Shown: one piece after another, positions 869 through 10,645 of the stretch
Layout of the letters: each line of letters starts with the position of its first letter
Position numbering within the stretch: the stretch's first letter is position 1
Source: a virus
Virus record (IMG/VR): IMGVR_UViG_3300040810_000390
Span: 1 to 24,694 of that record
Reading direction: 5' to 3' (one strand)
Length of the DNA stretch: 24,694 bases
Translations under genes and position numbers: made by a program
Notes under the pieces: generated by a model
Told to the model about the DNA's origin: nothing
Databases searched by the model: none
What the model saw: the letters and a program-made list of their open reading frames with translations, nothing else

Positions 869-1226
869 ATTTCTTCCTTCTTTCTTTAAATCTTTCAAAC
901 ATTTCAATAGTTTTTGATTCTTTCTTTTGTGGAAATAAAAATCCTGCTTGAACACCTTTCAATCTTTGTATCTTTCTCCAAAGTCTTGTTGGATCCAAAC
1001 CTGCATTATCACACAAATCATCAAACTCTTGAGTTCTTGTTTTGAAAAAATTATCTACATCTTTTTTTTCATGATCACAGATCCAAATGGTATTTACACC
1101 AAATGCATCTACTAAAGCTTGATTTAATACTGCTCTCCAAAGTTTTTGTTCTGAAGGTGCGTTATTATATTCCTGCATAGCTTGACCATAAAAGACGTGT
1201 GTTTTATTTTGATGAGAGCTTGCCAT
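831..1226 (-). CDS. Conserved phage protein of unknown function, 131 aa
   Basis: No catalytic motif is evident. The most distinctive stretch is SEQKLWRAVLNQALVDAF at about residues 25-42, followed by a charged segment and a C-terminus rich in basic residues (FKERRKKYVQSHWRYNH). The N-terminal Trp/Ala/Asp pattern resembles a protein seen next to small regulators in many phages, but I recall it only as an unnamed conserved protein. The ATG at 1226 overlaps the 57-aa gene by 23 bases; a Met at residue 17 (base 1178) is a possible later start. The basic C-terminus and the position behind a ribbon-helix-helix-like protein suggest a DNA-related job (inference). Confidence 0.6.
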   Translation of the reverse strand: MASSHQNKTHVFYGQAMQEYNNAPSEQKLWRAVLNQALVDAFGVNTIWICDHEKKDVDNFFKTRTQEFDDLCDNAGLDPTRLWRKIQRLKGVQAGFLFPQKKESKTIEMFERFKERRKKYVQSHWRYNHVG

Positions 1227-1377
1227 TCATCTTTCTCGCTTTCTCTGTCACTAATGTTTTTACTACTTGACTACGACTTAATTTGACATCAGGTGTCATT
1301 TTAGTCTGTAGCTTTGTTATTGTCTCATATGTTCTATTATCGACAGTAACGTTTTTATACTTGCTAAAGTCAGTCAT
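1204..1377 (-). CDS. Ribbon-helix-helix-like small DNA-binding protein, 57 aa
   Basis: This frame is short but well supported: an AGGAG site lies about eight bases before the ATG and a strong promoter lies just upstream. The fold pattern fits the Arc/MetJ/CopG type: a beta strand with alternating residues (YKNVTVD, residues 7-13), helix A (RTYETITKLQTKM), then LSRSQVVKTLVTEKARKM at 33-50 as helix B, beginning with the Ser-Arg-Ser cap typical of this fold. It is the first gene of the leftmost minus-strand unit and sits against overlapping divergent promoters, so it could repress its own promoter and that of the plus-strand gene at 1441 (inference). Confidence 0.6.
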   Translation of the reverse strand: MTDFSKYKNVTVDNRTYETITKLQTKMTPDVKLSRSQVVKTLVTEKARKMNGKLSSK

Positions 1378-1398
1378 TGTTTATATTCTCCTTTATTA

Positions 1399-1426
1399 TT
1401 TAACTCACAATATAGGATATTATAAT
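1399..1426 (+). promoter_or_regulatory. Sigma70-like promoter for the lone plus-strand gene
   Basis: On the plus strand, TTTAAC (1399-1404) and a perfect TATAAT (1421-1426) are 16 bases apart. The expected start is near 1433, only about eight bases before the ATG at 1441. The -10 lies inside the spacer of the opposing minus-strand promoter. Confidence 0.5.
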
Positions 1427-1436
1427 AATAAGTCAA
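1409..1436 (-). promoter_or_regulatory. Sigma70-like promoter for the leftmost minus-strand gene run
   Basis: Read on the minus strand, TTGACT (1436-1431) and TATATT (1414-1409) are separated by 16 bases. The expected transcript start is near 1402, leaving a leader of about 25 bases with AGGAG before the ATG at 1377. The -35 lies in a tandem TGACTTGACT. It interleaves with an opposing promoter. Confidence 0.6.
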
Positions 1437-1440
1437 GTCA

Positions 1441-1686
1441 ATGAAATTCTTTTTAACATTATATATTTGTTCAGCTTTAACTGGAGATTGTATTATCCCA
1501 AATCAAGAGCCTTATACTTATCCTAAAATGTTTGATACGCATTATGAATGCGCAAGAGCTGGACTTTCTGAGTCATATGAGATATTATACGCCGAAAAAT
1601 TTTTCGATAAAGATAGAATTAATGAGTATAAATTATACCCAAAATTTGGTTGTGTAGAAACCCCTGTAGTTGGAGAAAATACTTAA
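1441..1686 (+). CDS. Small Cys-containing exported-looking protein, 81 aa
   Basis: One of only three plus-strand genes. The N-terminus MKFFLTLYICSALTGDC is hydrophobic after one Lys and looks like a short signal or anchor sequence. Four cysteines (C10, C17, C37, C71) with YEC in the middle and a Cys near the end suggest disulfides outside the cytoplasm. This layout matches a small uncharacterised protein common in marine viromes (recalled resemblance, unverified). There is no Shine-Dalgarno site; the ATG lies 15 bases after a perfect -10 box, so the mRNA may be nearly leaderless. The stop shares TTAA with the stop of the convergent 43-aa gene. A secreted or periplasmic role such as exclusion or lysis control is possible but unproven. 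Confidence 0.6.
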   Translation: MKFFLTLYICSALTGDCIIPNQEPYTYPKMFDTHYECARAGLSESYEILYAEKFFDKDRINEYKLYPKFGCVETPVVGENT

Positions 1687-3098: not shown

Positions 3099-3133
3099 AA
3101 ATGTTTTTTATAATTATTCTAATGTAGGATCAA

Positions 3134-10052: not shown

Positions 10053-10595
10053 TTAACTCCTTTTTATATTTGTACGGTTACCTACGTAAGTTTTGAAGCA
10101 ATCAGGGAGTTCGATTCCAGACTCGTGACACTCCCTAACTACTCCTTTAAGGGTCTGAGGATGTACGCCTACTTTCTGGACAGGTTCGTATCCTTGACCT
10201 TTTGCAAGGACAGCATATTGTGCCGCCTTGTTATCTTCGCCACGACCAAAGGTAACGGTGATATCATTTTTAATAATATCACCTCGACCGTTATCACGAA
10301 GCCAGTTAAAAGCTGCATCTTCATCTAAGATAGATGCACTATAAAAGTTGGAGACTTCAACTGTCTCTCCATCTTTTAGCTTTAATTTTTTAATATTCAT
10401 TTCCTCCATCATTTGAGGAATTTCAAACTGTGAAATTATATTTGCTTTTTCTTTTAGTTTCTTAATACCATCTTCAGCATTTTTAATTTCATCTTCTAAA
10501 TTTTTTAGTTCTTGTACTTTGTTAGCTAATTCATTTGGATTAGCAACAGAACTTATTTGATCTTGCTTATCTTCTCTATAATTTATTTCACTCAT
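10053..10595 (-). CDS. Coiled-coil replication-region protein, 180 aa
   Basis: Residues about 22-60 form a charged coiled coil (VQELKNLEDEIKNAEDGIKK), followed by FEIPQMMEEMNIKKLKLKDG, a stretch I recall from conserved phage proteins lying just before binding-protein genes. The C-terminal half carries DEDAAFNWLRDNGRGDIIKN and KVGVHPQTLKGVVRE, resembling a small DNA-contacting helical domain, but no family name can be given safely. It is the first gene after the strong promoter at 10618-10645. The coding bases for the C-terminal third (about 10081-10260) are near 48% G+C by hand count, against about a quarter for the N-terminal part, which suggests a mosaic join. Confidence 0.75.
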   Translation of the reverse strand: MSEINYREDKQDQISSVANPNELANKVQELKNLEDEIKNAEDGIKKLKEKANIISQFEIPQMMEEMNIKKLKLKDGETVEVSNFYSASILDEDAAFNWLRDNGRGDIIKNDITVTFGRGEDNKAAQYAVLAKGQGYEPVQKVGVHPQTLKGVVRECHESGIELPDCFKTYVGNRTNIKRS

Positions 10596-10617: not shown

Positions 10618-10645
10618 AATATAATCCTACAAACTAAATTGTCAA
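10618..10645 (-). promoter_or_regulatory. Strong sigma70-like promoter of the replication operon
   Basis: On the minus strand TTGACA (10645-10640) is a perfect -35 and TATATT (10623-10618) the -10, with a 16-base spacer. The start would be near 10611, leaving a short leader with AAAGGT before the ATG at 10595. The TGA inside the -35 is also the stop codon of the 115-aa gene. Confidence 0.7.

Follow-up and report, generated by a model that had tools for sequence, protein, structure and literature searches.

A probable control region for a small pelagiphage regulator gene, where the facing promoter first proposed is not conserved

The window, by which we mean the whole 24,694-base stretch that was analysed, is a virus record whose DNA polymerase is 57.9–59.7% identical to its counterparts in HTVC027P and 023Pt_psg01, and it is therefore taken to be a pelagiphage of the HTVC023P type. 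Judged by sequence, its source is an ocean virus infecting SAR11 bacteria. A 63-nt gap (1378–1440) separates a leftward gene of 57 amino acids from a rightward gene of 81 amino acids, both lying as originally predicted. The features of the locus, together with one more distant promoter, are:

1204–1377, minus strand: gene for the 57-aa ribbon-helix-helix (RHH)-like regulator, opening a leftward run (open reading frame; 50-member alignment; structure model)
1361–1366, plus strand: alternative -35 hexamer TTGCTA of a candidate face-to-face Cys promoter, within regulator codons 4–6 (upstream scan; TTGCTA is kept in the window's clade, where descent confounds)
1384–1389, plus strand: alternative -10 hexamer TATTCT after a 17-nt spacer, overlapping the Shine-Dalgarno leader of the regulator gene (upstream scan; anchored scoring)
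1388–1394, minus strand: Shine-Dalgarno-like AAAGGAG of the regulator gene (from the sequence; a similar leader in 46 of 48 nonredundant relatives)
1399–1426, plus strand: originally predicted promoter TTTAAC-16-TATAAT (letters present; score at chance; unconserved)
1409–1414, minus strand: -10 hexamer TATATT of the regulator promoter (44 straight-box relatives: TATATT in 20, TATATA in 16)
1410–1418, minus strand: conserved box ATCCTATAT over the -10, a candidate operator half-site (anchored columns; single exact copy in the window)
1431–1436, minus strand: -35 hexamer TTGACT of the regulator promoter (42 of the 44 straight-box relatives have TTG, with a spacer of 16 or 17 nt)
1441–1686, plus strand: gene for the 81-aa Cys protein of the phrog_19893 family (profile match, E 9e-14; alignment of 41)
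10618–10645, minus strand: second box-bearing promoter, TTGACA-16-TATATT with TAGGAT directly before the -10, preceding a 180-aa gene (10053–10595, minus)

Two opposing promoters had been proposed for this gap, and the four hexamers are indeed found at the coordinates given for them, each -10 falling inside the spacer of the opposite promoter. The minus promoter is TTGACT-16-TATATT (1436–1409). Scored with an approximate sigma-70 matrix, it obtains 9.05, a value reached by 0.9% of 2464 windows of 73 nt (shuffle p 0.036). Promoter-like matches between positions 1 and 5000 are at chance (21 found, 23.4 ± 4.7 expected), and a looser scan of the whole window returned a second interleaved pair near 2151–2188, inside a gene.

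Conservation supports the minus promoter as that of the regulator. The 111 regulator genes collected gave 48 nonredundant upstream regions, and in 44 of these the -10 is overlaid by the block TC[CT][TC]A. The box is flipped in two of the exceptions (L031 and L112), degenerate in L006 and absent from L057, where the regulator gene sits directly behind a co-directional gene. In anchored columns of 38 divergent loci, the three positions just before the -10 read T in 38, C in 36 and C in 34; TCC in this place is not known as a feature of sigma-70 promoters. The divergent Cys gene is missing from eight of the 46 anchored regions, so the promoter belongs to the regulator and not to the gene pair. 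A leftward, regulator-led gene run from a real minus promoter, as first proposed, is thus borne out (44/48), and its transcripts would start near 1402. The -10 is spanned by the box ATCCTATA, which the original prediction did not include; this conserved box is the better explained part of the site.

By eye, the same -10 block can be read in three regulator genes from cellular assemblies, one of them labelled Pelagibacteraceae AG-422-I02. Single-cell assembly contigs of this cell and of Prochlorococcus AG-686-P16 (L163 and L164) contain the regulator gene with its promoter, probably as phage DNA carried along with the cells.

The rightward promoter fared differently. Its hexamers TTTAAC (1399–1404) and TATAAT (1421–1426) are 16 nt apart, and TTTAAC matches TTGACA at three of six positions. 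The best-scoring form, TTAACT-15-TATAAT, obtains 6.17, which 13.9% of the 2464 windows reach (shuffle p 0.158). In the 38 divergent loci, the best plus -10 within the minus spacer has a mean score of 2.72; the reversed strand of that spacer gives 2.69 (median shuffle p 0.46). In the nearest relatives (L003, L004, L043, L065 and L072) TATAAT has become TATTAT or TAAAAT, so the named boxes fail the check on close relatives that came with the original prediction. We therefore rejected the promoter at 1399–1426 both as conserved and as above chance.

According to the original prediction, the interleaved promoters (1399–1426 plus, 1436–1409 minus) would be mutually exclusive and so switch expression between the regulator run and the Cys gene. 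The geometry, a perfect TATAAT and the real minus side agree with this, as does the arrangement of the genes: after 80 of 146 regulator relatives had been kept for a neighbourhood count, 57 had a divergent Cys gene, 20 had none and 3 were too short (57 of 77 scorable loci). The plus boxes, however, are at chance and unconserved, and the start would fall about 8 nt before the Cys ATG, with no Shine-Dalgarno sequence for it in the window. We consider such an interleaved toggle very unlikely. The broader idea of a small switch is weakened, its minus side standing as a conserved promoter and its named plus boxes falling away; it is no more than weakened because a face-to-face plus promoter at 1361–1389 could still provide mutual exclusion.

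This second candidate came from a scan of 260 nt upstream, which pointed to TTGCTA-17-TATTCT, and it was then scored anchored on the regulator start. Sites of this type have a mean score of 5.73 in 39 divergent loci, against 1.46 in 9 non-divergent loci (p 1.6e-6, with related sequences treated as independent); for 352 control genes chosen with AAGG leaders the value is 2.64. Codon 5 of the regulator, which lies within the alternative -35, points the same way: among 33 nonredundant divergent MTDF genes, all 31 with Ser at this codon use AGC, and all 8 of the non-divergent set use AGT, AGC making up 5% of the Ser codons in these phages. With related loci, and with the non-divergent ones all in a single set, the contrast may reflect descent. 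Furthermore, AGC is not kept in 20 other divergent genes, where AGT accounts for 62% of the Ser cases at codon 5, and the -10 is weak (TAACCT in many loci) and partly forced by the Shine-Dalgarno sequence. If the Cys gene has a local promoter, TTGCTA-17-TATTCT would be the best candidate for it; the two promoters would then face each other, transcription would begin near 1396 and 1402, and polymerases and transcripts would interfere. That the Cys gene is driven in this way, from inside and just before the regulator gene, is a tentative reading to which we give slightly less than even odds.

The Cys gene may instead have no promoter of its own and be read from a distant plus start through the antisense of the regulator run. 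No conserved plus promoter was found in the 63-nt gap, no single position stands out in a position-averaged scan up to 260 nt upstream of the Cys gene, and in 023Pt_psg01 the Cys gene is co-directional, directly behind a 43-aa gene. Against this, the TTGCTA candidate exists, and the tight divergent layout is kept almost throughout: among 36 relatives of the Cys protein in viral contigs, 4 loci end too close to judge, one (L032) has no regulator, and 31 have the regulator divergent across a gap of about 60–75 nt. The layout in 31 of 32 loci with sufficient upstream sequence suggests shared control. A distant start is in our judgement rather doubtful.

The Cys protein has four conserved cysteines (C10, C17, C37 and C71) in an alignment of 41. 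Its matches fall in 34 phage records, and named Pelagibacter phages account for 32 of these. Its structure model is confident (pLDDT 88.7), and no PDB entry matches the fold (best E 1.3). The gene (window 1441–1686; L039 7001–7237) is inverted relative to 023Pt_psg01, and a search for inverted repeats near it, with an invertible segment in mind, found only short imperfect ones.

The 57-aa product had been described as a ribbon-helix-helix-like protein, and its motif and two-helix model support the likeness. In the 50-member alignment S34-R35 and N51-G52 are invariant; the model (mean pLDDT 83) places helices at 14–27 and 35–49 after residues 8–13, no strand being assigned in the monomer. No Pfam RHH family matched any of the 50 members at E ≤ 1. 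PHROG 12301, 'transcriptional regulator', matches 19 of the 50 (best E 0.013). The weak top Foldseek matches to the model are mostly TCP-domain chains (best E 2.3), which we take to be RHH-like; the best VIA Z in structure comparison is 4.7, and Arc, CopG and MetJ chains are not among the structure matches listed. The PDB gave no sequence relative, the one match being a chance one (E 0.71). Since no profile matches, we name the protein RHH-like and do not claim family membership.

The box recurs well beyond the regulator promoter. When the regulator promoter is masked in each of 20 RHH-bearing phage records (one regulator start per record), the hexamers CCTATA, TCCTAT, TTGACA and ATCCTA take ranks 1–4 of 2080 for enrichment in noncoding DNA. 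Enrichment of the box is at least 2.5-fold in 12 of the 20 records and is not clearly seen in the other 8 (G003, G004, G005, G007, G010, G014, G016 and G020). TCCTAT and ATCCTA rank 204 and 539 of 2001 in five pelagiphages without a regulator match; these RHH-less controls come from other phage groups, so that lineage and regulator presence are confounded in the comparison. These two hexamers rank 57 and 382 in HTVC023P and 023Pt_psg01, which are of the same group as the RHH-bearing phages and whose regulator matches are weak (E 0.002 and 3.4e-4).

Position relative to promoters gives the same picture. Downstream of TTGACW the box hexamers rank 1 and 5 in the RHH-bearing records, against 989 and 1640 (the pair in reverse order) in the upstream control and about 1340 after TTGACW in the RHH-less set. 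A half-site lies at most 36 nt from TTGACW at 22 of 74 nonredundant noncoding sites (shuffle mean 4.5, maximum 10), and at 2 of 13 such sites in the RHH-less set (shuffle 0.8). The exact pattern TTGACN{10,22}TAGGAT is a weaker test, with 21 matches in the 20 records against 9 for a reversed-pattern control. The nonamer ATCCTATAT, with its single exact copy in the window, has three within the initial 50 kb of HTVC027P, each of them intergenic, and TCCTAT occurs there 10 times in 2,697 intergenic bases versus 9 times in the coding rest. Its return at further promoters in related viruses suggests a control circuit that operates virus-wide.

Several individual sites were recorded as well. At 3122–3130 on the minus strand, the window carries ATCCTACAT, one mismatch from the box and 24–32 nt ahead of a 125-aa gene. 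HTVC027P gp33 and gp34 carry ATCCTATAC on the opposite strand, 16–28 nt before their starts (L121, 17365 and 17690). Between the Cys gene and the diverged regulator of 023Pt_psg01 lies a GC-rich, structured-looking stretch (L126, 1090–1330), entered by TTGACA-17-TATATA preceded by ATATCC; it may represent an unknown RNA that is under this box, and a search for structured RNA beside the 023Pt_psg01 and HTVC027P regulators gave no Rfam match at E ≤ 1.

The half-sites are spaced in a regular manner. In 252 nonredundant noncoding segments, with the regulator promoters left unmasked, we counted 132 half-sites (shuffle 73). Fourteen same-strand pairs lie within 24 nt, 11 of them at exactly 10 bp (shuffle total 1.6); as some of these are orthologous promoters (e.g. 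L134, L153 and L154), they are not 11 independent events. Six pairs are of the form TAGGA..TCCTA, five of them at 8 bp, and nine are TCCTA..TAGGA. The RHH-less set has 19 half-sites (shuffle 31) and three same-strand pairs, one at 10 bp. Eight of the 44 regulator promoters contain an inverted partner, TCCTA-N4-6-TAGGA, where shuffling gives a mean of 0.28. The box occurs in both orientations, as expected for a protein site, and one helical turn between half-sites is typical of small dimeric regulator arrays. We had also tried a dyad, AATAT-CCT-ATATT, as the operator; it did no better than independent columns in the regulator promoters, and separate half-sites therefore replace it. In L134 (1130), L154 (12255), L153 and L131 (records G013, G009, G008 and G006), a TTGACA/TGTCAA inverted pair directly precedes the TAGGAT boxes, giving the recurring compound element TTGACAATANCTGTCAATAGGAT.

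The box could also serve, as operator or promoter element, a host factor or a phage protein other than the regulator, whose gene would then be just one of several targets. We infer the 57-aa protein as the binder, which leaves room for this, and TAGGAT also lies exactly 17 nt after TTGACA and could itself serve as a -10. The two orientations and the 10-bp arrays are unlike a polymerase element, however, and the box is not enriched in the five RHH-less pelagiphages, four of which (HTVC010P, HTVC022P, HTVC008M and Skadi-1) have the same host species on record. Another binder seems to us unlikely.

Our preferred reading of the boxes is a set of iterated operators to which the RHH-like protein would bind. 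We favour, at a probability of roughly 60%, the view that the site serves a phage regulator operon as its promoter and operator, and that the operon's RHH-like protein would bind the box and repress its own and other early promoters. Host RNA polymerase would start leftward at TTGACT-16-TATATT, giving the 57-aa protein and the products of the genes after it. A dimer of the protein would most likely bind ATCCTATA over the -10 and shut off its own promoter. The same protein would also bind at the -10 of several other phage promoters, where the box is often repeated at 10-bp intervals, and the early genes may so be turned down together; here the set of boxes comes from statistics, and repression and timing are predicted. 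Bound polymerases and the box-bound regulator would also hinder a facing Cys promoter at 1361–1389.

Other small regulators offer points of comparison. In the immI region of phage P22, the RHH repressors Arc and Mnt act on opposing overlapping promoters; here the plus promoter is only a candidate, there is no second repressor gene and the sequences are unrelated. The omega repressor of pSM19035 and MetJ bind as RHH dimers to arrays of short half-sites, direct and inverted, which are spaced at 7 bp and 8 bp, compared with 10 bp here. We read the pelagiphage regulator as best likened in its working to the archaeal virus regulators F55 and SvtR. In PMC5569661, F55 of Sulfolobus spindle-shaped virus 1 is described as a small viral RHH regulator whose sites are tandem repeats within or beside early-gene promoters and the promoter of the F55 gene itself. 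Like F55, the pelagiphage regulator has a candidate site in its own promoter (44/48, flipped in 2), and the same site is iterated at other viral promoters, clearly in 12 of 20 records. Unlike the present case, F55 is described there as keeping lysogeny in an archaeal virus through the box ATAGATAG (PMC5569661); here the phage is of a lytic type on SAR11, the box is TATAGGAT/ATCCTATA with a 10-bp period, and binding is predicted. SvtR of SIRV1 differs, according to the same text, in its archaeal promoter elements and in a different, imperfect inverted-repeat consensus (PMC5569661).

Our search of the open-access literature found no description of the regulator or box in pelagiphages and no paper joining 'ribbon-helix-helix' with 'SAR11', and the available part of PMC9599517 makes no mention of such a regulator or box. 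The closest counterpart is the gp20/gp21 pair of HTVC027P, which has the same divergent arrangement and the same ATCCTATAT box over the regulator -10; the regulators are 53% and the Cys proteins 41% identical to those of the window, and both HTVC027P proteins are annotated as hypothetical. As reported in PMC12753301, HTVC027P has no RNA polymerase gene and relies on the host enzyme, the functions of its early genes are unknown, and gp33 and gp34 peak together in an extra expression cluster of their own. With a named candidate regulator, HTVC027P gp21, and a defined box at named promoters, gene timing becomes testable in a phage that is in culture and whose RNA-Seq data are public (PRJNA1253180).
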